Shown: piece by piece, positions 3,085 to 35,711 of the stretch
Layout of the letters: the number at the start of each line of letters is the position of its first letter
How positions within the stretch are numbered: the first letter of the stretch is position 1
From: Deltaproteobacteria bacterium GWB2_55_19
GTDB taxonomy: Bacteria > Desulfobacterota > GWC2-55-46
Length of the DNA: 64,000 nucleotides
Reading direction: 5' to 3'
Assembly: GCA_001797465.1 (NCBI GenBank)
Contig: MGPQ01000012.1
Span: forward strand, 1 to 64,000
Made by a program: the position numbers and the translations under genes
The notes under the pieces: generated by a model
Database searches by the model: none
What the model was told of the DNA's origin: nothing
The model's input: only the letters and a program-made list of their open reading frames with translations

Positions 3085-5421
3085 ATGCCGGGGGGACCTC
3101 GGTCTCCAGCCTTTAAAATGTCCAAGCGAAACCACATCCTGAATGCCGTAGCGATAGCCGTCATTTTTATCGCGGGGGCGTGCATACGCCTCATCCCGTG
3201 GGATAACTTCGTTACCAGCACTGGCATTTACTTTCTGGAAGCCGACAACTACGAGCACTTCAGGAAGGTCCGCGTCCTCTTAGAGCAGTTCCCGAGCATA
3301 CCCGATCATGACTTCTACATGGGCTTCCCAATCGGCACCGGCAACATCTGGGCCCCGCTCACCGACTTTTCCTTCGCCGTCATAATAAAGCTCTTATCAC
3401 TGCTCCCGTCAATAAATGGCGACATAGCCTATATCCTCGCTGTCCTGCCGCCTTTCGTCGGCACGCTCGCCGTCATCCCGCTCTATTTATGGTGCAAAGA
3501 GACGTTCGGGTGCAAGGCCGCGCTTATCGCGTCAATCATATTCATATTGCTCCCGGCGCACATATTCACGACTGTCGTGGGGAGACCCGATAACGAGCTA
3601 TTCGAGCCGATATGGGCAGGTATAACCTTCTGCCTCTACGCGCTTTCCGCGTCGGAAGCTGAAAAAGGAGAACCCTCTGGGAAAAGGCTCGTCGTATTGT
3701 CCGCGCTCGCCGGGCTCTCCGCCGCAGTCTCGCTCTTGTATTGGAGGGGCGCCGTCATCTGGTGGTCGATACTCGGCCTCTATTCGGTTGCAATGGTATT
3801 CGGTTACTCATTCAAGGACGGGAAGAGGTGGGTCGGTTTCTTTATATCAGGCGCAGTCGCCTTCTTTACAATGGCCTTTGTTATAGCATTCGTCCTCGTC
3901 TTCAACCCGTTCAGCCTGAAGGGCGGGACAGAGTTTAATGTGGTCTCGTGGTTCCATGTCATAACCGCGCTCCTTGCCGTAGCGTCATTGGGCGCGCTCG
4001 CGCTTGCGGTCTACCTTAAAAAGGAAAGGTCAGCCGGGCTTGGAAAGGCCGCGGTTGCAGGGATAGCCCTCTTATCCGCCGTCATTATAATATTCGCCTT
4101 TGTCGCGCCTTCCTTTTTCAAAGGCATAACCGAAGGGCTCGGGGTCGTCGGAGGCGGAAACAAGTGGACCTCGACTATCGCGCAGTACAAGCCGCTTCTC
4201 TTTGCCAACGGACGGTTTGGCATAAAGGAGCCGCTGGTATTCTCGACCATATTCCTCTTCATTAGCCCGATAGCCCTTTTCTCGCTCTCCAGACAGTGGA
4301 GGCGTGCCTCCGCGGCATCTCTGTTCTTCGTCTTTGCCGGGTGGACGCTCCTTGCGGTTACGCTCATAAACGGCAGGTATGAGAACGTCTACACTTTGAT
4401 TGTAGCGGGCGCTGGCGGCGTCTTCCTAAGCTCTGTCGGAGGATTGATCGAGGCGCGTGTGGACGGCGCAAAGGGCAGGGCCGCAGGGACGAGCGCAATC
4501 GTTGCGCTTGTCATAGTCGGCCTGCTACCGTCCGTCTCATTCTACAAGGGCCTGCCGCATACCGGACCGTTCCTTATCCAGGGGGACCTCGAAGATACGC
4601 TCTTCTGGATCAGAGACAACACTTCTGCGACAAGCAACTACCTCTATCCCCAGGAGAAACCAGAGTACGGCGTCCTCGCCCAGTGGGAGTTCGGGGGCTG
4701 GATAGAGGCAATGGCAAAGAGGCCTTCCGTCGCGACTGTGATGGGGACCGAGACCCACGGCATGAAAGAGTCCGCCGGGTTTTATCTCGCTACCGACGAG
4801 CGAGAGTTCCTGAAAATTATCGACGACAACGGCGTTAAATATTTCATCCTCTCAAAGACGCTCGCTGACTTGCCGGAATACGCCGCTATCATCGGCGAGG
4901 ACCCGACTGGATACGTGAACAGGAAGGTCCTGCCCGACGGCTCTGAGACAATAGAGACAGGGCAGAGGTTTTTCGACCTCTTGACGACGAGCCTCTACCT
5001 TAACGACGGGCAGAGGGCGGCGTCTCCGATACCGTTTAGAAGCGTGCCCGGCGTAAGGCTCGTATACGAGTCCAACGGCCAGTCGGATTTCAAGGGCCTG
5101 CCTCAGGAGGTCAAGAAGTACAAGGTATTCGAGCGGGTCAAGGGCGCGATAGTAAAGGGCGCGGCGAGGCCCGGCGAGCCGGTTGCGATGGCCGGGCTCG
5201 TTATGACCAACACCGGCAGGAAGTTCTTCGTCACAGGCGATACCTCGGCCGACAGCGAGGGCGTCTTTTATCTCAGCTTTTTTTACCCTAACGTGGATAT
5301 GAGGGCCGGCAAGACCGGCATAGTAAGCGGCTACGTCGTGCAGGTCGGCAAAAAAAAGTACGACCTGCAGGTTTCTGAAAAAGACATCCTTGAGGGGAAT
5401 GTGATATTATTCGGGAAGTAA
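3085..5421 (+). CDS. STT3/PglB-like oligosaccharyltransferase
   Basis: This 778-residue integral membrane GT-C enzyme resembles the catalytic subunit of N-oligosaccharyltransferases, which move a lipid-linked glycan to Asn of exported proteins. The N-terminal half is hydrophobic, with an acidic motif in the first external loop (EADNYEH, Asp54) and a second at GRPDNE (Asp169). The C-terminal soluble part carries QWEFGGWI near residue 533 where the family has WWDYGYxI. Start ATG 3085 follows GGGAGGGGG; Met12 has no ribosome site. No glycan-assembly or flippase genes adjoin it. The family is clear at the motif level; substrate and whether it acts on proteins are unknown. The 286 bases before it (2799-3084) hold no gene. 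Confidence 0.75.
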   Translation: MPGGPRSPAFKMSKRNHILNAVAIAVIFIAGACIRLIPWDNFVTSTGIYFLEADNYEHFRKVRVLLEQFPSIPDHDFYMGFPIGTGNIWAPLTDFSFAVIIKLLSLLPSINGDIAYILAVLPPFVGTLAVIPLYLWCKETFGCKAALIASIIFILLPAHIFTTVVGRPDNELFEPIWAGITFCLYALSASEAEKGEPSGKRLVVLSALAGLSAAVSLLYWRGAVIWWSILGLYSVAMVFGYSFKDGKRWVGFFISGAVAFFTMAFVIAFVLVFNPFSLKGGTEFNVVSWFHVITALLAVASLGALALAVYLKKERSAGLGKAAVAGIALLSAVIIIFAFVAPSFFKGITEGLGVVGGGNKWTSTIAQYKPLLFANGRFGIKEPLVFSTIFLFISPIALFSLSRQWRRASAASLFFVFAGWTLLAVTLINGRYENVYTLIVAGAGGVFLSSVGGLIEARVDGAKGRAAGTSAIVALVIVGLLPSVSFYKGLPHTGPFLIQGDLEDTLFWIRDNTSATSNYLYPQEKPEYGVLAQWEFGGWIEAMAKRPSVATVMGTETHGMKESAGFYLATDEREFLKIIDDNGVKYFILSKTLADLPEYAAIIGEDPTGYVNRKVLPDGSETIETGQRFFDLLTTSLYLNDGQRAASPIPFRSVPGVRLVYESNGQSDFKGLPQEVKKYKVFERVKGAIVKGAARPGEPVAMAGLVMTNTGRKFFVTGDTSADSEGVFYLSFFYPNVDMRAGKTGIVSGYVVQVGKKKYDLQVSEKDILEGNVILFGK

Positions 5422-5447
5422 TGCCGTAAAGATTTCCATTTTATAAT

Positions 5448-5465
5448 CCCCCTTTAGAAAGGGGG
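5448..5465. repeat. C/G-run palindrome
   Basis: CCCCCTTT and AAAGGGGG form a near-perfect palindrome between the STT3 and pyrophosphatase genes. Similar C-run/G-run hairpins occur near 40.43 kb and 59.96 kb, so it is probably a dispersed repeat. It lacks a T run for termination on plus. Confidence 0.45.
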
Positions 5466-5488
5466 GGAGGAAGAGACATCGGACGCTT

Positions 5489-7129
5489 ATGCCGCTTAAA
5501 GACCAGACATTCGTAATAGGCCACAAGAACCCCGACACGGACTCGATCTGCTCGGCCATAGGCCTCGCTGAGCTTAAAAGGCTCGAAGGCCATTTAAACG
5601 TATGCGCCGCGAGGGCCGGCGACATAAACCCGCAAACGTCCTTCATACTCGATTACTTCAAGGCAGACGCCCCGAGATACCTCCCCAACGTATACCCGAA
5701 GGCCTCGGACGTCATGTCGACCGGTGTCGTTAAGGTCGGAGGTGCGACGCCGCTCCTCAAGGTCATGGACCTCATGAGGGAGGAGAAGATAAGGTTCATC
5801 CCTGTTGTCGACCCTGACGGGAGGCCCGAAGGCGCGCTGACGCTCATGGATCTCGCGAGAAAACACATGCTGGAAACCGACGGACAGCGGGAGGTGACTA
5901 CCACGCTCCCCAACATCGCCTCAACGCTCGACGCCGAGATAGCGCTCGACTTCATAGGGAGCGAGGACCGGACCTTTTCCTTCTTTGTCGGCGCTATGGG
6001 TGTGGAATCTTTCCTCAATATCCTCGGCAAGAGCGACCCGAGGGGTTCCGCCGTTATAGTCGGAGACAGGGCGGAGATACAGCGGACGTCCATTGAGAAG
6101 GGCGTCGGCCTACTCATCATAACCGGCGGGTTCAGGGCAGGCGCCGACGTACTCGATGAAGCCCGCGCCAAAGGCGTAAGCATTATAATAACGCCTTTGG
6201 ATACTGCTACGGCGGCCCAGCTCGTGCGCCTCTCCACCCCGGCGAGGAGGGTCGTCGGAAGATACGAGAGCGCGTCACCCGACGAGCTCGCAACCGACCT
6301 TAAACTCAGGCTCGGAAACTCGACAGGCATAATCGTAGTAGATTCAGACGGCAGGATGATAGGGATAGTGACGAAAACTAATATTCTGCGCCCGCCGTCC
6401 TTGAACCTCATACTCGTCGACCATAACGAATTATCGCAGGCCGTCGACGGCGCCGAGACCGTCAACATCATAGAGGTCATCGACCACCACAGGATCGGCA
6501 ACTTCCACACGGTCCACCCGATACCATTTATCTGCGCGCCGGTCGGCTCGACCTCAACGCTCGTAGCCGAGCTCTTCAGGAGAAAGGGCCTGTTGATAAG
6601 GAAGGAGATCGCCGGGTTGCTCCTCGGAGGCGTTCTCTCGGATACCGTCATACTGAAATCCCCCACTACGACCCAAAGGGACAGGGATATAGTCGGATGG
6701 CTTGAGGATAAAACAGGGCTCGACCACAGGGCCTTCGGGACCGCCATATTCTCATCGACCTCGAGCCTCAAGGGGAGAGGCGCCGAGGCGGCGGTTGGAG
6801 GGGACTTCAAGGTCTTTGAGGCGAAAGGGCGCAAGTTCGGGATAGGCCAGTTCGAGACCATAGGGTTCGAGGAGTTCCATGAGGAGAGGCTGAAACTAAA
6901 GGACGAGCTCCTCAAAATCAAGGACAAGAAGGACCTGAAGCTCTCGGCCGTGCTCGTAACCGACATAGTCATGGGCACTTCCCTCTTCCTCGCCGTAGGC
7001 GAAAAGGAGGTTATGCTGAAGCTCGACTACCCGAAGGTCGACGACGGCGTATATGAGCTTAAGAACGTCTTATCGAGAAAGAAGCAGGTCGTGCCGCACA
7101 TCCTCGGCGTATTCAACGCGGCCTATTGA
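5489..7129 (+). CDS. ppaC: CBS/DRTGG-domain manganese-dependent inorganic pyrophosphatase
   Basis: This cytoplasmic family II pyrophosphatase hydrolyses PPi to two phosphates and pulls biosynthetic reactions forward, including ATP sulfurylase in this window. The DHH catalytic domain begins with GHKNPDTDS (residues 11-19) and resumes with VDHNE and IDHHRIG (about 332), SDTVILKSPTTT and the C-terminal DHHA2 part (SRKKQ). Two CBS domains, split around a DRTGG domain, are inserted between these blocks (about residues 70-300). At 546 residues it is the long, nucleotide-regulated form, in which adenine nucleotides bound to the CBS pair inhibit or activate. The motifs look complete. Confidence 0.92.
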   Translation: MPLKDQTFVIGHKNPDTDSICSAIGLAELKRLEGHLNVCAARAGDINPQTSFILDYFKADAPRYLPNVYPKASDVMSTGVVKVGGATPLLKVMDLMREEKIRFIPVVDPDGRPEGALTLMDLARKHMLETDGQREVTTTLPNIASTLDAEIALDFIGSEDRTFSFFVGAMGVESFLNILGKSDPRGSAVIVGDRAEIQRTSIEKGVGLLIITGGFRAGADVLDEARAKGVSIIITPLDTATAAQLVRLSTPARRVVGRYESASPDELATDLKLRLGNSTGIIVVDSDGRMIGIVTKTNILRPPSLNLILVDHNELSQAVDGAETVNIIEVIDHHRIGNFHTVHPIPFICAPVGSTSTLVAELFRRKGLLIRKEIAGLLLGGVLSDTVILKSPTTTQRDRDIVGWLEDKTGLDHRAFGTAIFSSTSSLKGRGAEAAVGGDFKVFEAKGRKFGIGQFETIGFEEFHEERLKLKDELLKIKDKKDLKLSAVLVTDIVMGTSLFLAVGEKEVMLKLDYPKVDDGVYELKNVLSRKKQVVPHILGVFNAAY

Positions 7130-7252
7130 TTGCGTTCTCGCGCCGGAGGCCCGATACTCAAGTCACATCCGGTTAATCAAATCCTTTTTATAATCGCATG
7201 GACTGTGCTATAAAACCCTTAAAAATCGACAGGCTAGCTGAACCGTTCATTG

Positions 7253-23592: not shown

Positions 23593-24159
23593 ATGGCGTT
23601 TACCCGCAAAAAGATCATCATAAACCCGTACCAGATAAGGCTCGCCATGAGCCTCTTCATCTACATCATCGTATATTCGATAATACTCGGGTTCATAATA
23701 TTCTATCCGCTCTATCAGGACCTCAACTACGCGACCGGCCTTGAGGAGCAGACGCGGATATCGGCGACCGTCCTTTACCTCCATAAGCGCGTCTGGATCG
23801 GGCTCTTTGTCGCCGCGGCGCTCGCCGCCGTCCACGCTATATTCTCCTCCCACAAGGTCGTCGGCCCGGTGTACAGGTTCGAGATAGCGCTCAAGGACCT
23901 TATAGCCGGGAATTACAGCTCGCGTGTAAGGATAAGGAAGGACGACGAGTTCAAGGAGATGGAGGGGTTCTTGAACGAGCTTTCCGCCGCTTTGGAGCTT
24001 AAGAGGAACAGGGACGCCCAGTCCTTCGAGGACACAAAAAACAGGCTCGAAACCGTCCAGGCCATGCTTGACGCCGAGGGCGCCAGATACCCCGAGGACG
24101 TCAAGCTCCACATCAGGTCCATAATAACCGGATTGAACAGCAGGGGATTCCGGAAATGA
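23593..24159 (+). CDS. Two-TM HAMP-domain protein
   Basis: This protein of about 188 residues has a first membrane helix (LFIYIIVYSIILGFIIFYPL), a short periplasmic loop, a second helix (IGLFVAAALAAVHAIF), and then a HAMP linker (VVGPVYRFEIALKDLIAGNY). A coiled-coil tail follows, but no kinase, cyclase or MCP signalling domain. I took ATG 23593, with GGAG seven bases upstream. The stop overlaps the next ATG (ATGA), coupling it to a pilin-like protein. A HAMP protein with no output domain suggests that the pilin-like protein or a membrane partner is its effector, which is unproven. Confidence 0.7.
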   Translation: MAFTRKKIIINPYQIRLAMSLFIYIIVYSIILGFIIFYPLYQDLNYATGLEEQTRISATVLYLHKRVWIGLFVAAALAAVHAIFSSHKVVGPVYRFEIALKDLIAGNYSSRVRIRKDDEFKEMEGFLNELSAALELKRNRDAQSFEDTKNRLETVQAMLDAEGARYPEDVKLHIRSIITGLNSRGFRK

Positions 24160-24632
24160 CGGTAAGCCGTCCAGGACTGCCCCTCAAAGGGGCTTTAAGC
24201 AAAAGGGGTTTTACGGTCGTGGAGCTCCTTTTCGTCATGGGCATACTCGGCATACTCGCGGTCATTGCCATCCCGGCGTACACTTCCTTCATACAGAAGG
24301 CGAGGGAGACGGCGGTAGTAACGACGCTCTCCAAGATAAAGAGGGGCCAGGAGGTGTACAGGCTCGCGGATTCCGTGGGACTTTACACGGGCGACTTCCA
24401 GGCCCTCGTCGCGACAGGTGTTTTGTCGCCTGCGCCGGGGGGTGCGACGCGCGACGAGCACGATTACAGGTTCACGCTCGCCGCGGGCGTATCAGGCGGC
24501 GTTCCTTACTGGACGGTAAACGCCAACCCCCTCGATGCAAGCGCCTCGGCCAAGTGGTTTTACATCGACGACGCCGGTGTGGCGAGGTTCGAGACTGGCG
24601 CCCCAGCGAACTCCGGGAGCCCGTTGTTCTGA
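24156..24632 (+). CDS. Type IV pilin-like / pseudopilin protein
   Basis: This 158-residue protein has a prepilin signature: basic leader ending SKRG, then FTVVELLFVMGILGILAVIA, with Phe at +1 and Glu at +5 of the mature chain. The C-terminal part carries the G-secretin type beta region (DYRFTLAAGVSGG, WTVNANPLDASASAKWFYID), as in minor pilins and type II pseudopilins. PilD would cleave and methylate it. It overlaps the HAMP gene by 4 bases and is far from the main pil cluster (43.9-55.8 kb), so it may serve as a minor pilin. Confidence 0.8.
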   Translation: MTVSRPGLPLKGALSKRGFTVVELLFVMGILGILAVIAIPAYTSFIQKARETAVVTTLSKIKRGQEVYRLADSVGLYTGDFQALVATGVLSPAPGGATRDEHDYRFTLAAGVSGGVPYWTVNANPLDASASAKWFYIDDAGVARFETGAPANSGSPLF

Positions 24633-24747: not shown

Positions 24748-25974
24748 ATGCAACACGGGTCCGAAAGGCCTGCAAGTCTCCTTCTTAAACGCGCTTCACT
24801 CGTCCTTATACTGGCAATACTCGCCTCCTTCTCAATCACATACGCCTCGTTTGCCGATGATGCCGGCGAAAGGACCGTTGAGTCTACCGGCATAGCCTCT
24901 GTCTCAGGCGGAAACCTCGCGCTCGCGAGGGACTCAGCCATTGCCGACGCTCTTAGGAAGGCCGTCGAGCAGGCCGTGGGCACGCTCGTAGCCTCTGAGA
25001 CGCTCGTTGAGAACTACCAGCCGCTCCGGGACAACGTCTACACGAAGACCGCCGGGTACATCCGCTCTTATACCGTAATACGCGAAGGCCAGTCCCCTGG
25101 GCTCTATCAGGCGACTGTAAGCGCGGTCGTGGCCATAGGCAACATAAAGGACGACCTCGGGGCGATGGGGCTCCTCCACGCCAAGGCCGAGCGCCCGAGG
25201 GTCCTCTTCATGATAGCCGAGAAGAGCATCGGCAGGAGGTACTACGCCTTCTGGTGGTGGGGGAGAAGCGAGTTCAAGGGGGAGGCCATAGACATGTCTT
25301 CCGCCGAGGCGTCGCTCAAAGAGAGGTTCCTAGAAAAGGGTTTCAATGTGGTCGACTCATCCGCAGGCACCGTCGTCATACAGGACGCCTTCAGGGTGGA
25401 GGACCTCTCCAGAGAGGGGGCCGCGAGGGTCGGGAGAGACCTTAACGCCGAGGTCGTTGTATTCGGCAAGGCGTTGGCGACCGAGGGCCCTCGCATGTCC
25501 GGGAGCGCCGTCGGGTCTTATATCGCCGACATCACGGCGCAGGCCGTCAGGGTGGACGACGGGGTTGTCCTCGGCTCCGCGAAAGGCCACGGGGTCTCAA
25601 GGCACATTTCAGAGGTGACGGGCGGGACAGAGGCGTTGTCAAAGGCGGCGATTGATTTAAGCGACAAGCTCATCACCCAGATAGCGGCGAAGTGGTCGCT
25701 CGGGCCTCAGCCCGTGACCTTGAAGATAGACAACATAAACGATTACAAGAGGCTCTCGGATATCAAGAACGCCCTCAAGGGCAGAGTCCGCGGGGTCTCC
25801 GGGGTCTACCAGAGGAAGTTCGAGGGCGGCTCGGCCACACTCGAACTCGATTCCAGGCTCACGGCCCAGAACATAGCGGACGAGATATCCAGGCTCGGGC
25901 TGAAACTCAAGGTGACGAGGACGACCGCTAACACGATTGAAGCCGCGTTGGAAGACGAACCGCAAAGGCCTTAA
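24748..25974 (+). CDS. FlgT-N-domain exported protein
   Basis: An N-terminal signal helix (SLVLILAILASFSITYA) is followed by a FlgT N-terminal-like domain (RTVESTGIASVSGGNLALAR, DSAIADALRKAVEQAV). A middle domain of TolB/CsgG-like character follows (VLFMIAEKSIG, AEVVVFGKALATEG), then a C-terminal alpha/beta module (TLKIDNINDYKRLSDIKNAL). In Vibrio, FlgT builds a flagellar outer ring, but there are no flagellar genes here. Start ATG 24748 follows ACGGAGG; longer frames upstream lack ribosome sites. It opens a run of four to five exported proteins and may form a periplasmic ring or scaffold. Confidence 0.7.
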   Translation: MQHGSERPASLLLKRASLVLILAILASFSITYASFADDAGERTVESTGIASVSGGNLALARDSAIADALRKAVEQAVGTLVASETLVENYQPLRDNVYTKTAGYIRSYTVIREGQSPGLYQATVSAVVAIGNIKDDLGAMGLLHAKAERPRVLFMIAEKSIGRRYYAFWWWGRSEFKGEAIDMSSAEASLKERFLEKGFNVVDSSAGTVVIQDAFRVEDLSREGAARVGRDLNAEVVVFGKALATEGPRMSGSAVGSYIADITAQAVRVDDGVVLGSAKGHGVSRHISEVTGGTEALSKAAIDLSDKLITQIAAKWSLGPQPVTLKIDNINDYKRLSDIKNALKGRVRGVSGVYQRKFEGGSATLELDSRLTAQNIADEISRLGLKLKVTRTTANTIEAALEDEPQRP

Positions 25975-26014
25975 GAACGTGGCAGGATTTTTGCTGGCAA
26001 TAAGGGAGTAAGTG

Positions 26015-26857
26015 ATGAGTAAGAGGTTTTTTGTCCTGTTAGCGATACTGCTATTCCTCGCGGCGGCCTGCGTAGCGCCGCAAAGACGCGTGCGGCCTGA
26101 CCCGTCGAACCCGGTCTATACGGTCGCGCTCCTTCCCATGTACAACGCGACTAACGACGTCGACGGGCCCAGGGCCGTGAGGGAGGCGTTCTTCAAAAGG
26201 CTGGATAACATGAACTACCTGCCGAAGGCCCTCTCCGAGGTCGACCAGACCCTCATGGACAGGATGGGCATTACCCTCGGGAGCCAGCTTGAGATGACAA
26301 GCCCCAGGGAGCTTGGAGAGACGCTCGGGGTAGACGGCGTTATATACGGGTATCTCCTTAATTTTGACGATGTGACGACCGGCCTCTATAATATGAAAAA
26401 GGTAAGGGCGGCCTTTAAGCTTGTGGATGCGAGGACAGGCAGGGTCGTCTGGGCGCGGGCGCTCGGCGTTAAGAGCGGGCTCGCCGGCGGCGATGTGGGC
26501 GTTGGGGTGACGCTCCTTAAGGAGCTGAAAGGGGACGGCCTGGAGGATTTGAAAAACATAAAGGGGCTCTCTGATATCCCGGGCCTTGCCGACTGGCATC
26601 TGCTCCGGGCCGGGAAGACCGAGAAGGTCGAGGACGCCGCCATGCTAGCCATAGGGGAGAAGCTCTTCTCAAAGGCCCTCGGCGTGCACCTGAAATTCGA
26701 GACCGATGAAATGATAGACAAGCTCATGGCCGGCTTCCCGGCAGGCCCTGGGACGGCAAGTAGAGGAGAGCCCGCAGTGGCGGACGAGGCGAGGCCGAGG
26801 TACAGGGACCCCGCGCCTCCTCCCCCGGGAAGGCCCCTCCCGCCGCCGTGGAGATGA
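26015..26857 (+). CDS. DUF799-like lipoprotein
   Basis: This 280-residue protein has a lipoprotein signal (LLAILLFLAAACVAP, lipobox AAAC). The core resembles the DUF799/GNA1162 lipoprotein family (VYTVALLPMYNATNDVDGP; GVDGVIYGYLLNFDD), which shares a fold with the CsgG N domain. A proline-rich tail (PPPPGRPLPPPW) ends the protein. Start ATG 26015 follows GGGAG. GNA1162 relatives are found with CsgG-like partners, as here with the next gene. Function is unknown; an outer-membrane-anchored subunit of a secretion or envelope complex is the best inference. Confidence 0.7.
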   Translation: MSKRFFVLLAILLFLAAACVAPQRRVRPDPSNPVYTVALLPMYNATNDVDGPRAVREAFFKRLDNMNYLPKALSEVDQTLMDRMGITLGSQLEMTSPRELGETLGVDGVIYGYLLNFDDVTTGLYNMKKVRAAFKLVDARTGRVVWARALGVKSGLAGGDVGVGVTLLKELKGDGLEDLKNIKGLSDIPGLADWHLLRAGKTEKVEDAAMLAIGEKLFSKALGVHLKFETDEMIDKLMAGFPAGPGTASRGEPAVADEARPRYRDPAPPPPGRPLPPPWR

Positions 26858-26900
26858 GGCTGGCGGAGACCGAAAAAACATGGCAAACGGAGGCATACCT

Positions 26901-27866
26901 ATGATAAAAAACCTGAAGGCCGGCTATGCCGCGCTCTTCGCACTCGCCATATTGCAGACGCCGTTTCTCGGCGGTTGCACCCCGACGACGACAGGCGCTG
27001 TAAAGGACGACGTAAGCATCACGGGCCAGACGCAGAGGCTTGAAGCGACAGGGGGTTTATATCGCGGCCCCGAGTACAACATAGCCATACTCCACTTCGA
27101 TAACAGGACGCCGTCGAGGGTCATAGGCGTGGGAGAGGCGGCGGCCGAGATATTGAGGACCATCGTCAAGCAGTCGGGGCTGGAACCCGTGACGCTTACA
27201 CGGGACGAGATGCGGGCGCAGGAGAGGTTGATCGAACTACAACAGTCCGGCGCTGTGAAGACCGGCAAGAAGGACGCGGCAGAGGGTTTCGCGTCCGTGG
27301 ACTTCAGGATCTCCGGCGCGATAACCTCGTACTCTGAGCTTGAGGAGTCCTCCGACGTGCTCCTGGCGCAATCCAAGACACATGTGGCGCGCGTGCAGGT
27401 CGATTATTCTCTTGTTGACGTCGCAACCGGCATGAGCCTCGTTTCCGAATCCGGCGTGGGCGAGTACAGGAAAAAGACCGGCGGCCTCCTCGGCCTGGGG
27501 TCGAGGTCCACTTCCGACGCGTCGCTTCGCGACGGCGCGTTAAGGGACGCGCTCTCCAAGGCCATGACGAAGATGATAGAGAAGCTCAACGCCATCCCCT
27601 TTACGACAAGGGTTGTCCTTGTCGAGCCGGGCGCAATCGTCATAAGGGCCGGCACGAAGTCCCGCCTTGAGCCGGGGACCGTCCTCGGCGTATACAGGCC
27701 AGGGGCCGAGCTCATAGACCCGGATACAGGCAGATCCCTCGGCAAAAGGGACAGGCTCATAGGCGAAGTGATACTCACGATGCACCAGAACGAGAAGATA
27801 TCTGAAGCGTCCGTAAAGTCCGGCGCTGGGTTCCAGGCCGGTGACATAGTAAAGGCCCTAAAATAG
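26901..27866 (+). CDS. CsgG-family lipoprotein
   Basis: This 321-residue lipoprotein (lipobox LGGC) has a CsgG-like core: YNIAILHFDNRTPSRVIGVG, DFRISGAITSYSELEES, and VQVDYSLVDVATGMSLVSES. A C-terminal domain, EPGTVLGVYRPGAELIDPDT, is of the FlgT-C kind. CsgG itself forms the nonameric curli export pore in the outer membrane. No curlin-like gene is seen here. Start ATG 26901 follows GGAGG by seven bases; an earlier ATG at 26880 has no site. It forms an operon with the preceding and following exported proteins. Confidence 0.72.
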   Translation: MIKNLKAGYAALFALAILQTPFLGGCTPTTTGAVKDDVSITGQTQRLEATGGLYRGPEYNIAILHFDNRTPSRVIGVGEAAAEILRTIVKQSGLEPVTLTRDEMRAQERLIELQQSGAVKTGKKDAAEGFASVDFRISGAITSYSELEESSDVLLAQSKTHVARVQVDYSLVDVATGMSLVSESGVGEYRKKTGGLLGLGSRSTSDASLRDGALRDALSKAMTKMIEKLNAIPFTTRVVLVEPGAIVIRAGTKSRLEPGTVLGVYRPGAELIDPDTGRSLGKRDRLIGEVILTMHQNEKISEASVKSGAGFQAGDIVKALK

Positions 27867-27875
27867 GAGGTTTTG

Positions 27876-29087
27876 ATGAAGAAGCTCTTGGCCGCATTTT
27901 CACTCCTCCTGCTCTCCGCCTTTGTTTTTTCGGGGTGCGCGAAGCAACTGCCGAAGTGCGACGGCGTAGAGGACAACCCTATCCACCACTACCGTATGGG
28001 CATGGAGTTGCTTGACCAGAAGAAGACCGACGAGGCGGCCTCTAAATTCGAGCGCGCCTCCTATTGCGACGATAATTACGGGCCCGCGCACGCCGGGCTC
28101 GCCATAGTGGAGGCTATGAGGGCCACAGCCAAGAAGGACAACTCCTACAAGAAGGTGGACGCCGAGCGCGCCAGCGAGCACCTGAAGGCCGCGTACAAGA
28201 ACGCGTCAAGGCCCGAGGACGAGTTCGCCTATTACCTCGCCTCCATGCGCGTGTTCACGATACTCAAGGCCTCGAAGGGGTGGCTTGGGGAGGTCGAGGA
28301 CGACTACAAGGACGCCATGAAGCTCAAGGTGGATGAGAGGAAGCTCATATATTACGACGGCAGGGAGGCCGCGAGCTACTTCATGGGCATCGCCTTTCTC
28401 GAGGCCCGGGAGTTTCAGAGGGCGCGGGACATGTTCGGAAACGTCCTTGGCGAGAGGGCCGAGTCCAAATGGGCCGCGCGCGCGGACAAGGCATGGAAGA
28501 AGGTCGATAAGATCGTAAGGGCCCTTGCCGGGATCACATTAGGCGACGTCGGCAGGGAAATAGCGGTAAAGGATTCCGTCGGCAGGGCCGACATGGCCGC
28601 TCTCCTTATAGACGAGCTTAAGGTCGACAAGCTCTTCGCTGGCAGGATACCGCTTGCGATGGCGGATAAAAAGAAGGCCGAGTTCGTCCCGGCCGATATG
28701 CTCAATAACCCGTTCAGGGAAGAGGCCGAGACCCTAATGAAGTGGAACGTCAGGGGCCTTGAGCCGATATACGATGAAATGACGAAGGCCTACCTCTTCA
28801 AGCCCGATAACCAGGTGACGAGAAAGGAGCTCGCCTTCGTAATCGAGGACGTCCTCATGAAGATAACGGGTGACGAGGGGCTGGCAACTGCATACTTCGG
28901 CCACGAGAAGTCCCCGTTCCCGGACGTCGCCCCGTCGTCGGCATGGTACAACGCCATCATGAACGTGGCTACGAGGAACATCATGGAAGGTGAGCTCTCA
29001 GGGGAGTTCAGGCCGAACGACAGCGTCGACGGGGCCGAGGCGATCCTTGCCGTACGCGTCCTCAGACAGCACCTGAACATACATTAA
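27876..29087 (+). CDS. Lipoprotein with TPR-like repeats and SLH domain
   Basis: This 403-residue lipoprotein (lipobox FSGC) has an alpha-helical TPR-like middle (HYRMGMELLDQKKTDEAASK and later YFMGIAFLEAREFQRARDMF). A C-terminal S-layer-homology-like region follows (SPFPDVAPSSAWYNAIMNVA, then FRPNDSVDGAEAILAV). SLH domains bind cell-wall polymers, so this lipoprotein could tie the outer membrane to peptidoglycan. Start ATG 27876 follows TAGGAGG; a TTG one codon earlier is less likely. It ends the closely spaced operon begun at 24748 and is followed by a CCTCTAAAAAT palindrome. Confidence 0.75.
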   Translation: MKKLLAAFSLLLLSAFVFSGCAKQLPKCDGVEDNPIHHYRMGMELLDQKKTDEAASKFERASYCDDNYGPAHAGLAIVEAMRATAKKDNSYKKVDAERASEHLKAAYKNASRPEDEFAYYLASMRVFTILKASKGWLGEVEDDYKDAMKLKVDERKLIYYDGREAASYFMGIAFLEAREFQRARDMFGNVLGERAESKWAARADKAWKKVDKIVRALAGITLGDVGREIAVKDSVGRADMAALLIDELKVDKLFAGRIPLAMADKKKAEFVPADMLNNPFREEAETLMKWNVRGLEPIYDEMTKAYLFKPDNQVTRKELAFVIEDVLMKITGDEGLATAYFGHEKSPFPDVAPSSAWYNAIMNVATRNIMEGELSGEFRPNDSVDGAEAILAVRVLRQHLNIH

Positions 29088-29099
29088 TGGCTATCTCAA

Positions 29100-29138
29100 G
29101 GGCTACCTCTAAAAATTCCTTATTTTTGGAGGTAGCCC
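29100..29138. repeat. CCTCTAAAAAT palindrome, copy 4
   Basis: GGGCTACCTCTAAAAAT (29100-29116) and ATTTTTGGAGGTAGCCC (29122-29138) pair over 17 positions with one G-U wobble and a 5-base loop. It is the longest stem of the four copies and lies between the SLH lipoprotein and LPP20-like genes. Confidence 0.85.
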
Positions 29139-29193
29139 TAAAGTCACTGAACAAATCCAGGTTTGAGGGTATAAGCCCTGTTAAGGAGGAAGG

Positions 29194-30033
29194 ATGAGAA
29201 TACTCAAGGTCCTTATCGTACCCGTGGTCCTGTTCCTTTTTGCCGTCGTTGCCTGGGCCGAGGTCATGCCGCAGGTGACGACCGACCAGAGGCAGGCGTT
29301 TGTGACAGGCTCGATAGTAGTAAAAGGCGAGGCTGTCGCTGACAGGGCCCTCCCTGCCGGACAGAGGAGGCTCATGGCCCTTAGAGGCGCTAAGGTCGTG
29401 GCCTTCAGGGAAGTGGCGGAGATAATGGAAGGCGTGACCGTCACTGGCGAGACAATGGTTGTGAACATGGCCGCGGAATCCGATACCATACGCTCTACTG
29501 TGCAGGGGATAGTCAAGGGGGCGCAGATAGTCAAGGAGGGCTATGACCCCTTAAGCGAGACCGCCGTGGTATATCTCTCGGTGCCGCTGACCGGCCCCAA
29601 CGGCATCTTCGCCCAGCTCCTTCCCCAGGTGGTGCAGATGTTGCCGCCCCCGGCATTCCTCCCGTACCAGCCGCAACCAGACGTCATGCAGGCGAGGCAC
29701 GACGGCCTCATAATAGATTGCAGGTCGCAGGCCTTCAAGCCCGCGCTTATAAACAGGATAGTGACGAAGAACGGAGAGATGATCTACGACCCGGCGCGGG
29801 TCGCGCAGGAGATCCTTGTCGAGAGGGGCGCGGCAGAGTACACGAACGACGTGGGCAAGGCCAAGGCGCTGCTCTCCGAGCGGGGCTCTTCGAACCCGCT
29901 TGTCGTGAAGGCCGGGGGCGTTGTAAAGGGGACCGACGTCGAGGTGGCGCCCGAGGACGCGTCACAGATATTCTCATCGAACCAGTCGGCCAATTACCTC
30001 GAGGGCGCGAAGGTCGTATTCGTCCTCAGATAG
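29194..30033 (+). CDS. LPP20/FlgT-N-like exported protein
   Basis: This 279-residue protein has a signal peptide (VLIVPVVLFLFAVVAWA) and an LPP20-like domain related to FlgT-N (GQRRLMALRGAKVVAFREVA, VNMAAESDTIRSTVQGIV). A proline-rich linker (PPPAFLPYQPQP) and a C-terminal alpha/beta domain (DGLIIDCRSQAFKPALINRI) follow. A Lys-Ala-rich stretch with the repeat YTNDVGKAKALLSERG follows. There is a GGAGG start site. It is probably part of the same envelope module as the CsgG and DUF799 proteins, a second LPP20/FlgT-N protein within 4.5 kb. The molecular function is unknown. Confidence 0.68.
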   Translation: MRILKVLIVPVVLFLFAVVAWAEVMPQVTTDQRQAFVTGSIVVKGEAVADRALPAGQRRLMALRGAKVVAFREVAEIMEGVTVTGETMVVNMAAESDTIRSTVQGIVKGAQIVKEGYDPLSETAVVYLSVPLTGPNGIFAQLLPQVVQMLPPPAFLPYQPQPDVMQARHDGLIIDCRSQAFKPALINRIVTKNGEMIYDPARVAQEILVERGAAEYTNDVGKAKALLSERGSSNPLVVKAGGVVKGTDVEVAPEDASQIFSSNQSANYLEGAKVVFVLR

Positions 30034-30143
30034 GGGCAGGCCGTCTTTTGACACTCCCTTTTTATCTGACGGGAGGGGATAGCCGGGGGCGAAGTCTTTC
30101 GCCATCGCCAGCCCTTCCCCCATAAAGGGGTAGTGGATTAAGG

Positions 30144-30159
30144 CCGCGGCAAGCCGCGG
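30144..30159. other. GC-rich hairpin
   Basis: CCGCGGC and GCCGCGG pair around an AA loop in the 175-base gap between the LPP20-like protein and the barrel gene. There is no T run; the role is unknown. Confidence 0.4.
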
Positions 30160-30208
30160 CGCATCAACCTTGAGAGAGAAGCAAGATAAATCCATTCCGG
30201 AGGTGTAT

Positions 30209-30958
30209 GTGAAAAAGTTTCTCGCGGCTTCTTTGGTCTTTGCGGCAACACTGGCTACCGCCGCTACCGCTTCGGCGGTAGTGGACGTAGAGGGCAGGTA
30301 CTGGTTTACGAACATGGACGGCACGGTCCAGGTCTCGAACGGGGCGGTCGGCACCGAACTCGACATCGTCGACGACCTCGGCATGGAGGACAAAAACTTC
30401 TTCGAGGGCAGGGTAACGCTCGAGCTCGGGAGCCACAAGCTCAGGTACGGGTACATGCCGCTTAAGTGGAGCGGATCAACGACCTTAACCGAGTCCGTCA
30501 CCTTCGCCGGGCAGACCTACACCGCCAGCGCCGACGTGGATTCCGAATTGAACCTTGCGTACCACAGGCTCGGGTATGAGTACGACTTCATAGACCTGCT
30601 TAACAACAAGCTCGGGGTGATAGTGGAGCTTAAGTACTTCGACGGCGACGCCTCGCTCGCCTCCGCCGCACTCGGCCTTGACGAGTCGGAGACGTTCAAG
30701 CTCCCGATACCGACCGTCGGCGTCGCCGCGCAGGTAGGCCTGCCGATGATATTCTCCGTAGGCGGCGAGATCACCGGCATATCGCTCGGGTCCTCGGCGT
30801 ATCTCGTAGACGCCGAGGCGGCGGTGAATCTAAAGCCCGCGCCGTTTGTCATAATCTCCGGCGGGTACAGGATATTCAAGATGCACGCCGAGAGCGACAA
30901 CGACCTCGCCGAGGTCTCTCTATCCGGCCCGTTCTTGTCTTTAAGGGCGGACTTCTGA
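30209..30958 (+). CDS. Outer-membrane beta-barrel protein
   Basis: This protein of about 249 residues has a signal peptide (FLAASLVFAATLATAATASA) and eight or so amphipathic strands (VDVEGRYWFTNMDGTV, KLRYGYMPLKWSGS, LAYHRLGYEYDFID, YRIFKMHA) ending in LRADF, a terminal aromatic residue. This is the form of a small OmpA/OprF-like or OMP_b-brl barrel. I start at GTG 30209, preceded by GGAGG; the frame from 30170 has no site. It closes the envelope-protein run and is followed by a strong terminator. Substrate unknown. Confidence 0.7.
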   Translation: MKKFLAASLVFAATLATAATASAVVDVEGRYWFTNMDGTVQVSNGAVGTELDIVDDLGMEDKNFFEGRVTLELGSHKLRYGYMPLKWSGSTTLTESVTFAGQTYTASADVDSELNLAYHRLGYEYDFIDLLNNKLGVIVELKYFDGDASLASAALGLDESETFKLPIPTVGVAAQVGLPMIFSVGGEITGISLGSSAYLVDAEAAVNLKPAPFVIISGGYRIFKMHAESDNDLAEVSLSGPFLSLRADF

Positions 30959-30995
30959 TCCTTTGACCGCCAGTTTTCAGGCTGGGGTAAACGAG

Positions 30996-31036
30996 GGGGG
31001 ACTTCCGCGTCAGGGAAGTCCCCCTGGAATTTTTTT
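30996..31036 (+). terminator. Strong intrinsic terminator
   Basis: GGGGGACTTCC (30996-31006) and GGAAGTCCCCC (31014-31024) form an 11-bp stem with a 7-base loop, followed by a T run (31030-31036). It ends the envelope module ahead of the Mla operon. The 170 bases after it hold nothing I recognise. Confidence 0.85.
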
Positions 31037-31207: not shown

Positions 31208-31993
31208 ATGGAAACGCTTAAAACGTTAGGCAGGGAGCTCCTGGAGAGGGCGAAGGTCCTCTTTGAGTTCTGGAAGATAATCGTCTCAACGGCGGAATCC
31301 GTCCTTTTCCGGTTCAACCTCGGACGCAAGGCGACGCTTGACGTCCTCCTTAAGCAGGTCTATTTCACGGCCTTTGAGGCGCTCCCGATAATATCCTGGA
31401 TAGCCCTGATCATCGGGCTCATCATCGTCACCCAGGCCTTGAGCATCCTGCCGAGGCTCGGAGGCGAGGGGCTCATCGGCGAGATACTCGTCTGGGTACT
31501 CATAAGGGAGCTCGGGCCCGTGTTCGCCTCCGTCATAGTGATTGCGAGGAGCGGCACCGCCATGGCTTCCGAGCTCGGGCTGATGAAGAGCTCGAATGAG
31601 GTCTCGGCGCTCGAGGTGATGGGCATAGACCCCATGCACTATCTAATCGCGCCGAGGGTCCTCGGGACGATGATAAGCGTCTTTGTCCTCACCTTTTATT
31701 TTGAGGCGATATCGATACTCGGCGGCTACCTGCTCGCCGGTTTCGGAAAGAACATCGCCTTTTCCGTCTTTGTCGATTCCATCATGCAGGCCATGGGTTT
31801 TGTCGAGGTCTCGGTCTCGCTCCTTAAGAGTCTCCTCTTCGGGCTGATTATCGGGACCGTCAGCTCTTATTACGGCCTGAGGGTTAAGAGGTCGATAACA
31901 GAGATACCGCAGGCTACCACGAAGGCGGTCATGGGGAGCCTCAGGCTCGTTTTCGTAACCGACGCGGTCATAACCATCCTCTTTTTCATCTGA
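31208..31993 (+). CDS. mlaE: MlaE-type ABC transporter permease
   Basis: This 261-residue inner-membrane permease of the MCE/Mla phospholipid transport systems has five or so hydrophobic segments. The family signatures are VLIRELGPVFASVIVIARSG (with the RELGP motif), SALEVMGIDPMHYLIAPRVL and the C-terminal TTKAVMGSLRLVFVTD. MlaE forms the membrane part that passes phospholipid between inner membrane and the MCE protein. The mlaF-like and mlaD-like genes follow at once. Confidence 0.9.
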   Translation: METLKTLGRELLERAKVLFEFWKIIVSTAESVLFRFNLGRKATLDVLLKQVYFTAFEALPIISWIALIIGLIIVTQALSILPRLGGEGLIGEILVWVLIRELGPVFASVIVIARSGTAMASELGLMKSSNEVSALEVMGIDPMHYLIAPRVLGTMISVFVLTFYFEAISILGGYLLAGFGKNIAFSVFVDSIMQAMGFVEVSVSLLKSLLFGLIIGTVSSYYGLRVKRSITEIPQATTKAVMGSLRLVFVTDAVITILFFI

Positions 31994-31998
31994 ATATT

Positions 31999-32688
31999 AT
32001 GGGAACGCTTGTCGATATAAAGTCCGTATCCTGCTACAACGAGGCGGGCCGTCCGCTTTTTGAGGACGCGAGCCTTTCTTTCTCAGGCGGGGAAAGGGTG
32101 CTCATCATCGCGCCCGTGGCCTCTGGAAAAAGCGTCCTCATAAGGATGCTCGCCGGACTCTCCATGCCCGATAAGGGTACGGTCAGGGTCTTCGGCGAGG
32201 ATATCGCTTCGCTTACGAAGGACGGGCTCAATAAGCTCAGACAGAGGATGGGGTTCGTCTTTCACGACTCCGTCCTCATAAGCAATTTGAAGGTCATTGA
32301 AAACGTCGCGTTGCCGCTCATATATCATCGCGCCGCGCTGTCTTATGAGGATGCCATGCAGAAGGCGGCGAGGCTCCTGGAGGGGACCGGCTTCAGGGGC
32401 GACCTGTGGGGCCTGCCTGGGATGCTCCCGCTTTACGCGAAAAAGGAAATCGCGCTCGCGAGGGCGCTTGTCCTGAGGCCTGAGATAATCGTCTGCGAGA
32501 ACCTCTGGGACGGCCTTACGGACACGGAAAAGACGGGTCTCTCGTCGCTCCTACTCCAGTACCATAAGTCGAACCCCGGGGGCCTCCTTGTCTTTACGGC
32601 CCTGTCCGACGCGGACGCGCCGCACGTGCGGCCCCATCGCGTAATAAGAATAGAGGGTTGCATGATATCAGAGGAATTAAGGGCTTAG
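31999..32688 (+). CDS. mlaF: Degenerate MlaF-type ABC ATPase
   Basis: This 229-residue protein aligns with MlaF along its whole length, but most catalytic signatures are altered. Walker A reads APVASGKS in place of GPSGxGKT. The Q-loop Gln is His (FVFHDS). The LSGGx signature is replaced by LPLYAKKEIALARAL. Walker B reads IIVCENL instead of IIFDEP. The H-loop His is absent (VFTALSDADAP). Only SGKS and the glutamate-like position remain. It is in frame, coupled to its neighbours and free of stops, so it is a pseudoenzyme more than a decayed gene, or depends on a second ATPase. Confidence 0.78.
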   Translation: MGTLVDIKSVSCYNEAGRPLFEDASLSFSGGERVLIIAPVASGKSVLIRMLAGLSMPDKGTVRVFGEDIASLTKDGLNKLRQRMGFVFHDSVLISNLKVIENVALPLIYHRAALSYEDAMQKAARLLEGTGFRGDLWGLPGMLPLYAKKEIALARALVLRPEIIVCENLWDGLTDTEKTGLSSLLLQYHKSNPGGLLVFTALSDADAPHVRPHRVIRIEGCMISEELRA

Positions 32689-32689
32689 G

Positions 32690-33712
32690 ATGACGATAAG
32701 GCAGAAAGACCCGAGGTTTAAAAACCTCGAGATCAAAACCGGAATAATGGTCGTGATAGCCATTTTGGGTGTCGCGCTCGTCATGGCCTTCATAGGCCTT
32801 GAGAAGGACCTTTTCTCAGCGAAGTACAGGGTGTATTTCATATCCGAAAGCGGGTCCGGGTTTGTCGAAGGGATGCCCGTAAAGCTCTCAGGCTTCAGGA
32901 TCGGAAGGGTTAAAAAGATAGAGCTCACCGAGGACGCGAGGGTCAGGATAGTCGCTGAGCTGAACAGGAAGTACGAGCGCTGGATAAGGGACGATTCAGT
33001 CGCGCGCCTTTCCAAGGAAGGTCTGATAGGAGACCCGTACGTCGAGGTAACGGCAGGCAACGCGGAGCGGCGCATGCTCGTCAACAACGACGCGATCCAG
33101 TACGTAAAAGAGGGCGGGATGGAGGAGCTTGTAGAGAAGGCGAAGCCTGTGCTGAACGAGATAAAGGACATCATACATTACGTCAACGACCCCGATGGCG
33201 ACATAAAGGTGATGCTCTCGAACCTGAAGGAACTCTCGGTAGAGGTGAGGGAGACGAGGCGGGCGGTTGACGCGACACTAAAGGACGCCGGAAAGTCTAT
33301 AAGGGACGCCGACAGGCTCGTACTCGACTTGAACGACAGGACGAAGTCGCTTATTGATAACGCCGACAGGACCATAACGCGTCTCGACCCGGTCATAACG
33401 AGGATAGAAGACGCGGCCGGCAAGGCCGGGGCCGCAATCGACAGGTTCCCTGAGACGATGGAAAAGGTAGAGCGCATAGCCGACAATGTGAGGCTCTTGA
33501 CCGACGCGCTCGCAAAAGAGACCCCGAGGATACGGGAGATGCTCGTCAACGCGGATGAGACGCTCTGGGAGAGCAAGGAGATGGTAAAGGGCGTAAAAGA
33601 GAGCTGGCCCGTGAGGCTTATGATCCCTCCGGCGAAGGGGCCGGAGCTCGTCCCTTTAGACGGCTACCTGCTTAACAACGGCAAGTCCGCGCCGATGAAA
33701 AAGGCCGAATGA
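32690..33712 (+). CDS. mlaD: MlaD-type MCE-domain protein
   Basis: This 340-residue protein is anchored by one N-terminal helix (TGIMVVIAILGVALVMAFIG). It then has an MCE domain (AKYRVYFISESGSGFVEGMP, VKLSGFRIGRVKKIEL, DPYVEVTAG). A long helical tail follows with repeated amphipathic heptads (IRDADRLVLDLNDRTKSLID...), able to form the needle or barrel that carries lipid across the periplasm. It is longer than E. coli MlaD (about 180 residues), closer to YebT/PqiB-like tails. It starts two bases after the ATPase stop and ends overlapping the TPR lipoprotein. Confidence 0.87.
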   Translation: MTIRQKDPRFKNLEIKTGIMVVIAILGVALVMAFIGLEKDLFSAKYRVYFISESGSGFVEGMPVKLSGFRIGRVKKIELTEDARVRIVAELNRKYERWIRDDSVARLSKEGLIGDPYVEVTAGNAERRMLVNNDAIQYVKEGGMEELVEKAKPVLNEIKDIIHYVNDPDGDIKVMLSNLKELSVEVRETRRAVDATLKDAGKSIRDADRLVLDLNDRTKSLIDNADRTITRLDPVITRIEDAAGKAGAAIDRFPETMEKVERIADNVRLLTDALAKETPRIREMLVNADETLWESKEMVKGVKESWPVRLMIPPAKGPELVPLDGYLLNNGKSAPMKKAE

Positions 33713-34647
33713 TGAAGTTTAAGAAGTTTATGGTGTTGATGTCGGCCGCAGGCCTCGTCTACGGGTGCGCCCCGCGCGTGGAGGACGCACGCCTGGCGTC
33801 AAAGTCCGCTGAGGCGAGGATGAAAGGGGTGGCCTGGTACGCGGATGGGGACTACCCCCGCGCGCTCGCGCGGTTCAGCGAGGCCTTGAGCATGGACAGG
33901 GCCTCTGACGACAGAAAATCCGAGGCCCTTGACCTCGTGGACATAGGCAGGGTATATATATCGGTCAACGACGCGGTGTCAGCCAGGCGCTTTCTCGGCG
34001 AGACTGTGAGGCTCTCGACGACCGAAGGCTTCCACGAGGTCCTCTCAGAGGCCTATGCGACGCTCGCCAAGGTTGAGCTCATGGAGAACGATAGGCCCTC
34101 TGCCATGAAATACATCGATGAATCGATTAAGACGGACGCCTCGCTCTCAAGGAAAGAGTCCGGCGGAAAGCTCAACCTTAAGGCATCCATAGTTTTATCC
34201 GATGACAGGGCGGGTGAGGCCGTCGCGCTCTTTGAGAGGGCGCTCTCTATCAATGAGTCCGCCGGCGACGATGGCGAGGCCGCCAACTCTTTACGGGGCC
34301 TCGGGGACGCCGCGTTCGCTTCAGGCGACCACGCTGGCGCGTTCAGACACTACGAGGCCGCTTACTCGAAGGACAAAAGGCTCGGCCTCTCGACCAGGAT
34401 AGCGCGAGACCTGTACGGTATGGCTGAGGCCCAACTTGTAATGGGCAGGAAGGACGAAGCGCTTTATCTCCTTGAGCGCTCCTATTACGTCAGCCTGAGC
34501 GGAAAGGACGCGGCCTTCGCGGCGAAGAGCCTCGGGGGGATGATATCCATCTTGGAAGGCTCCGGCGACATTGAAAAGGCCCGCGGTCTCAAGGAAATAA
34601 AAGACGGGCTTGAGTCTAAAGAAAATACGGGCGAAACTCTCAGATGA
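33709..34647 (+). CDS. TPR lipoprotein of the Mla operon
   Basis: This 312-residue protein has a lipobox (MSAAGLVYGC) and about six TPR-like helix pairs (GVAWYADGDYPRALARFSEA, AYATLAKVELMENDRPSAMK, SLRGLGDAAFASGDHAGAFR, LYLLERSYYVSL). It takes the place of the soluble MlaC or outer-membrane MlaA, neither of which is seen here. It could form a scaffold or receive lipid at the outer membrane, but that is inference. Overlaps by 4 bases on both sides (ATGA) show strong coupling to mlaD and to the kinase. Confidence 0.72.
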   Translation: MMKFKKFMVLMSAAGLVYGCAPRVEDARLASKSAEARMKGVAWYADGDYPRALARFSEALSMDRASDDRKSEALDLVDIGRVYISVNDAVSARRFLGETVRLSTTEGFHEVLSEAYATLAKVELMENDRPSAMKYIDESIKTDASLSRKESGGKLNLKASIVLSDDRAGEAVALFERALSINESAGDDGEAANSLRGLGDAAFASGDHAGAFRHYEAAYSKDKRLGLSTRIARDLYGMAEAQLVMGRKDEALYLLERSYYVSLSGKDAAFAAKSLGGMISILEGSGDIEKARGLKEIKDGLESKENTGETLR

Positions 34648-35711
34648 AACCAAGGGTACTTGCGGTAGACGACGACGAAAGAAACCTCTCGCTCCTCTCA
34701 GCCAAGCTCGAAAGGGAGGGCTACGAGGTCACGAGCGCGAGAAACGGGATAGAGGCGCTCGCGAAGGTCAGGCAGAACCCGCCGGACCTGATCCTCATGG
34801 ACGTCATGATGCCGCAGATGGACGGGTATGAGGCCTTAAGACAGCTCAAGTCCCGCGAGGATACGCGCTACATCCCGGTAATAATGCTCACGGGGAGGAC
34901 CGAGATAGAGGACAAGGTCCTCGGCTTCGAGGTCGGCGCCGAGGACTACATAAACAAGCCTTACAGCCTCCAGGAGGTGGCGGCGAGGGTAAAGTCGCTT
35001 CTCCGCATGAGGGCGCTTCAAACGCGCCTGCGCGACACCGAGAAGATGGCGGCGCTCGGAGGCATGGTCGACGGAATAGCCCACGAGATCAGGAACCCGC
35101 TTACCGCCATAGGCGGCATGGCAAGGCGGCTCTTTGAGGGCGAGACCGACCCCCAGCACAAGGAGTACGCCCAGTGGATCATAAAGTCAGTCGAGCGCCT
35201 TGAAAGGATGCTCCAGAGGATAGACGAGTACAAGCGCATACTCTCATCCACGCTCTCCCCCGGGGACGTTAACAAGGTCATAAACGACGCGGTAAAGGAA
35301 ATAGAGGAGTTCATCGAGGTCAAGGGCAAGGACATCAAGGTCTTGAAGCTCCTCATGCCTGATCCGCCGGTTGTGAAACTCGACTACGGCAATTTCAAGA
35401 GCGCCCTTTACAACATACTCCAGAACTCGGTGGAGGCGATAGACAATAAGGGAGAAATAAGGGTGGAGACCCTGCCGTCCCCGGACTCGGTCCTCGTTAT
35501 CAGGATAATCGACACCGGAGGAGGCATAAGCCCGGACGATATCAGGAAGATATTCAACCCGTTCCAGTCCTCGAAGTTCGAGGGCGCGGGGCTCGGCCTC
35601 ACCATCACCTACAGGATAGTAATCGACCACGGCGGCGACATAGAGGTCGAAAGCAAGAAGGGTGAGGGGACGACCGTCACGATAAAACTCCACCCGGTCC
35701 CGGCGAGATAG
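34644..35711 (+). CDS. REC-histidine kinase hybrid
   Basis: This 355-residue cytoplasmic signalling protein has an N-terminal receiver (VLAVDDDERN, phospho-acceptor DLILMDVMMP near Asp52, switch Lys in INKPYS). It then has a HisKA dimer domain (GIAHEIRNPLTAIGG) and HATPase_c (NILQNSVEAID, DTGGGISPDDI, GAGLGLTI). There is no transmembrane segment, so input must come through the receiver, and output would be phosphotransfer to an unknown response regulator. It is translationally coupled to the lipid-transport operon by ATGA, suggesting envelope-linked signalling. Confidence 0.87.
   Translation: MKPRVLAVDDDERNLSLLSAKLEREGYEVTSARNGIEALAKVRQNPPDLILMDVMMPQMDGYEALRQLKSREDTRYIPVIMLTGRTEIEDKVLGFEVGAEDYINKPYSLQEVAARVKSLLRMRALQTRLRDTEKMAALGGMVDGIAHEIRNPLTAIGGMARRLFEGETDPQHKEYAQWIIKSVERLERMLQRIDEYKRILSSTLSPGDVNKVINDAVKEIEEFIEVKGKDIKVLKLLMPDPPVVKLDYGNFKSALYNILQNSVEAIDNKGEIRVETLPSPDSVLVIRIIDTGGGISPDDIRKIFNPFQSSKFEGAGLGLTITYRIVIDHGGDIEVESKKGEGTTVTIKLHPVPAR

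Follow-up and report, generated by a model that had tools for sequence, protein, structure and literature searches.

Six adjacent genes of Deltaproteobacteria bacterium GWB2_55_19, here called P1 to P6, form a conserved module that pairs homologues of the flagellar proteins FlgT and FlgP with outer-membrane lipoproteins, and the module is kept in genomes that have neither FliF nor FlhA. In this class of bacteria it is linked to a second, divergent MlaE permease. P1 to P5 and the barrel P6 may well make up a periplasmic ring or scaffold, associated with the outer membrane and belonging neither to the flagellum nor to curli, a reading that we regard as evenly poised. Its most likely job in this class would be the docking of a lipid-transport needle, which we put forward tentatively; the scaffold part of the reading is much the firmer of the two.

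The genes occupy positions 24748-30958 of the window, the whole 64,000-nucleotide stretch of DNA that was analysed, and all six lie on the + strand with gaps of 37, 22, 6, 106 and 136 bp from P1 to P6. The families and coordinates agree with those of the first-pass annotation, which had recognized FlgT-N/LPP20, DUF799, CsgG-family, SLH and barrel genes in one run. An intrinsic terminator with a 12-bp GC-rich stem and a T-run (30995-31025, + strand) closes the unit; the same element is found in locus L033 and a comparable one in L039, both from other members of the genus. The genus and a few other relatives have a type IV pilin-like gene (window 24156-24632) and a gene for a HAMP-like membrane protein immediately before P1. 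PADLOC gave no matches. No paper on the combined P1-P5 gene set was found in the literature searched, and the assembly appears, as first suspected, to be undescribed.

P1 (24748-25974) has a Sec signal and no lipobox. It combines an FlgT_N domain (Pfam, E=1.4e-5, just under the cut-off) with a TolB/GNA1162-like middle and an extra C-terminal alpha/beta domain. Over residues 42-318 it resembles Leptospira LipL46 (E=2e-9), with a score of 36.6 bits against that model's cut-off of 400, by which P1 is no orthologue. The best PDB match of its AlphaFold (AF2) model is FlgT (3w1e, E=2e-10), at a low TM of 0.28; the models of P1 (pTM 0.39) and P3 (pLDDT 66, pTM 0.52) are of moderate confidence.

P2 (26012-26857) is a lipoprotein with the lipobox AAAC and the only GNA1162 gene that a search of the genome returned. 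It falls in the GNA1162/DUF799 family (PF05643, E=2.6e-8, 34.1 bits, above the 25.9-bit cut-off), and its profile matches 4hrv at E=3e-9. It shares its Pfam family with Neisseria GNA1162, from which it differs in having P1, P4 and P5 as partners and, in many relatives, a C-terminal LolA-like DUF4412 domain fused to it. The source genus is without DUF4412, and the domain weakly resembles a lipoprotein-sorting protein (E=0.0018). P3 (26880-27866, with a Shine-Dalgarno sequence favouring the ATG at 26901) is a lipoprotein of the CsgG/FlgT fold, with the lipobox LGGC and an FlgT_C/TsaP-like C-terminal domain. Its AlphaFold model is matched best by FlgT (8z5n and 3w1e, E about 6e-16, TM about 0.5) and second by CsgG (4uv2, E~3e-9), with GNA1162 and PelC further down the Foldseek results. 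The PelC dodecamer of Pel export is likewise an outer-membrane lipoprotein ring of related fold; it works with other partners, and no Pel genes were recognized in the parts of the window examined.

P4 (27873-29087) is a lipoprotein with the lipobox FSGC, a TPR-like N-terminal half and an SLH C-terminal half (Pfam, E=4.6e-15, 55.8 bits). It is the only SLH protein found in the genome, and one PF04230 gene was found there in a search for a pyruvyl-transferase acting on the SLH wall ligand. P5 (29194-30033) is a secreted FlgP/LPP20-type SHS2 protein with a C-terminal domain as in 5jir. As a single sequence it matched no Pfam family and aligned to the solved FlgP structure at 3.2e-5. Its profile matched chain 9hmf_C, from a structure entry cited by the Campylobacter motor paper, at 2e-16, FlgP 8z5n at 4.8e-8 and 5jir at 1e-9 over almost its whole length. 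An insert reportedly goes together with ring formation in the FlgP family (PMC12222027), and the alignment of P5 to FlgP runs without a gap across that region. P6 (30170-30958) is an outer-membrane beta-barrel of the TIGR04219 type (E=5.4e-21, below the curated cut-off) and is conserved beside P5 in the loci of relatives. Some members of the class have a third FlgT_N protein between P5 and P6 (L042, 13215-14387; L052, 9586-10749).

The gene order is not a matter of chance, since dozens of genomes preserve both the gene set and its arrangement. P3 is found in 45 of 59 relatives, and most of the class carries P1 to P5 in the same order. Around P3, P2 lies upstream in 29 of the 30 loci read and P4 downstream in 28, one of the exceptions being a contig end. 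Other families of the phylum have the order P5-P4-P1-P2-P3 (three loci) or a bare P2-P3 pair (four further loci). Candidatus Nitrospira defluvii has P1-P2-P3 (L043); there the P1 gene (6619-9102) is without its FlgT_N part and has a transposase gene just upstream, and an insertion may have cost the protein its N-terminus. A Nitrospirae genome (L041) reads P5, P4, P5, a CHASE2-like/adenylate cyclase-type gene (5306-7252), P1, P2 and P3. In the distant families (L066 and L071) a gene for a FecR-like protein follows P3. Across the wider phylum, P3 occurs in 22 of 197 genomes at E<=1e-20 and is absent from most. This deep conservation of the P1-P5 core had been missed at first, as had the LolA-like fusion of P2 in relatives and the divergent MlaEFD genes downstream.

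The module is also independent of flagella. Ten high-quality genomes of the class and four more distant ones carry it in the absence of both FliF and FlhA, at 93-100% completeness, and three of the genomes without these genes (G008, G051 and G056) have the complete set including the transporter. The count takes in only genomes searched for FlhA and leaves out the FliF-negative, module-positive G027, G042 and G046. G049 is FliF-negative with FlhA present, probably through an assembly gap, and was not counted as aflagellate. Eight relatives have FliF without P3, and there is no association between P3 and FliF across the 59 relatives (p=0.52).

Beyond the terminator lies an Mla-type unit, also on the + strand. 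It comprises a divergent MlaE permease, MlaE2 (31208-31993, PF02405, E=3.4e-63), an MlaF-like ABC ATPase (31999-32688, ABC_tran, E=1e-15), an MlaD/MCE protein of 340 aa whose long helical tail makes it a candidate needle (32690-33712, MlaD E=5.6e-15 over residues 45-123) and a TPR lipoprotein (33709-34647, TPR_12, E=1.6e-21). Many relatives have two MlaE genes, one canonical (E about 1e-84) and one divergent (about 1e-60). MlaE2 is present in 29 of the 45 P3-positive genomes and in 0 of the 14 P3-negative ones (p=1.7e-5, by a test that ignores shared ancestry). Where MlaE2 and P3 share a contig (24 cases), MlaE2 always lies downstream on the strand of P3, at a distance of 3.2-5.6 kb. The second MlaE of G034, at 31% identity, was too distant to be counted confidently as the same paralogue. 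At its end the unit has a strongly conserved gene for a hybrid response regulator-histidine kinase (window 34644-35711), which is kept even where MlaEFD has been lost and is a possible regulator.

The two sets of genes can be parted. Since the terminator separates P6 from MlaE, they probably do not make up a single operon. The ring genes persist in G009, G024 and G010, which lack MlaEFD2, and more distant families have the core with no Mla genes nearby, so lipid transport by MlaEFD2 is not the only role of the core. In two of these genomes (L048 and L049, from G009 and G024) the stretch from P6 to the downstream genes has no MlaEFD2, in what looks like a clean loss, and G009 still keeps the TPR lipoprotein gene.

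The design that these genes call to mind is one in which a needle meets a ring. The outer-membrane lipoprotein PqiC of E. coli PqiABC assembles as an octamer into a ring that accepts the PqiB needle (PMC10897342), and Brucella Mpc joins MlaEF to the long MpcD (331 aa) and the PqiC-like lipoprotein MpcA in a needle-plus-ring design (PMC12436622). Here, too, outer-membrane lipoproteins broadly of that fold class are encoded near MlaEF and a long MCE protein. The differences are that no PqiC-family member (PF03886/ABC_trans_aux) was found in five genomes searched, that there are several ring-type proteins and an SLH anchor, and that the lipoproteins probably form a separate transcription unit.

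By analogy, the lipoproteins P2 and P3, of the GNA1162/CsgG/FlgT/PelC/PqiC fold class, would assemble into at least one ring beneath the outer membrane, and P1 and P5, with their FlgT_N/FlgP-type SHS2 domains, would add adjoining rings. P4 would tie the putative complex to peptidoglycan through its SLH region, and P6 would span the outer membrane. The ring could then receive or stabilize a trans-envelope needle, the long MlaD of MlaEFD2, as the PqiC ring does for PqiB, with lipid as the presumed cargo. Ring formation is extrapolated here from homologues. The ring or scaffold is favoured because proteins of the P2/P3 fold class sit beside a long MlaD, PqiC is absent from those five genomes, relatives of P2 carry DUF4412, and P5 aligns gaplessly over the FlgP insert. 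A bolder version, which we hold to be slightly more doubtful than the docking role itself, is a multi-ring, peptidoglycan-anchored docking machine of the outer membrane, built of non-flagellar FlgT/FlgP homologues and receiving a dedicated MCE needle, whose ancestors were maybe the source pool of flagellar T/H-ring parts.

Among the other readings, in one the lipoproteins would act like the activator LpoB, controlling peptidoglycan synthesis or the integrity of the envelope, and P4 would use its SLH region to read the wall. P3 does match LpoB weakly (E=0.0024, below the cut-off), and P4 as the genome's sole SLH protein would suit such a role; the fold of P3, however, fits FlgT and CsgG best, and no penicillin-binding protein was seen among the neighbouring genes examined. 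LpoB is not known to have an FlgT_C domain, which also counts against this reading of P3, and we think it improbable.

It is a little less probable again that P3 is a CsgG/HfaB-type secretion pore for some exported substrate, even with a CsgG match at the Pfam cut-off (E=2.7e-4), CsgG as the second-best fold and the conserved barrel gene P6 nearby. P3 shares the core fold and the lipoprotein anchor of the curli pore CsgG. It differs in its added FlgT_C-like domain, in a genome where a search found no CsgF, and in the segments corresponding to the two full-length transmembrane hairpins of CsgG, which are short and charged. In the alignment with E. coli CsgG, the hairpin 1 segment is 6 residues shorter, with E153, E156, D159, K166 and R171 invariant, and the counterpart of hairpin 2 is changed as well. 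The better structural match is FlgT, which belongs to a ring at the flagellar base and is not known to form a pore. Because of these hairpin segments and the closer fit to FlgT, a pore is disfavoured, and on sequence grounds a CsgG-like pore is unlikely. The first-pass annotation had proposed a non-flagellar ring or export pore anchored to peptidoglycan; a non-flagellar, outer-membrane-associated and probably anchored assembly stands, with its gene order kept in the aflagellate relatives where that annotation advised looking, and the pore finds no support.

That P3 might act like TsaP, as an accessory of a type IV pilus secretin, is very unlikely. Its C-terminus weakly matches a LysM/TsaP-type chain (E=0.0017, the sole match of the P3 profile in a search of PDB sequences), and the pilin-like gene lies just upstream of P1 in the genus and a few relatives; against this, most loci long enough to show that position have no pilin gene there, and the neighbourhoods examined gave no sign of a secretin.

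Least probable of all is that the P1-P6 run builds an H/T-ring or a basal-disk-like accessory of the bacterium's own flagellum, in the manner of FlgO/P/T: P1, P3 and P5 are relatives of FlgT or FlgP and the source genome has flagellin, FliF and FlhA, but these genes sit elsewhere than the module, P3 and FliF do not go together, and the module is not a flagellar accessory as a rule, since genomes without FliF and FlhA keep it. The first-pass annotation had seen no flagellar genes, which is right for the parts of the window examined, where neither flagellar nor curli genes were found, and wrong for the genome; flagellar genes elsewhere in the genome, one half of the refutation that it had named, do not refute a non-flagellar role, because other genomes carry the module and have no flagella. 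With the Vibrio FlgO/FlgP/FlgT proteins (H/T/LPHT ring) and the Campylobacter FlgP basal disk, the module shares FlgT_N and FlgP/LPP20 SHS2 domains, an association with the outer membrane and the alignment of the P3 model to FlgT. In place of a single FlgT with N, M and C domains, it has the N domain in P1 and an M/C-like fold in P3, and its partners are DUF799, SLH and barrel proteins.

FlgT and FlgP have been studied almost only as parts of the flagellum. A conserved operon that pairs their homologues with lipoproteins of the CsgG/GNA1162 fold, in genomes without flagella, opens the way to testing whether rings of the outer membrane preceded motors and were later taken over by them. For lineages that seemingly have no PqiC, the module is also a candidate for the outer-membrane partner of MCE lipid transporters.
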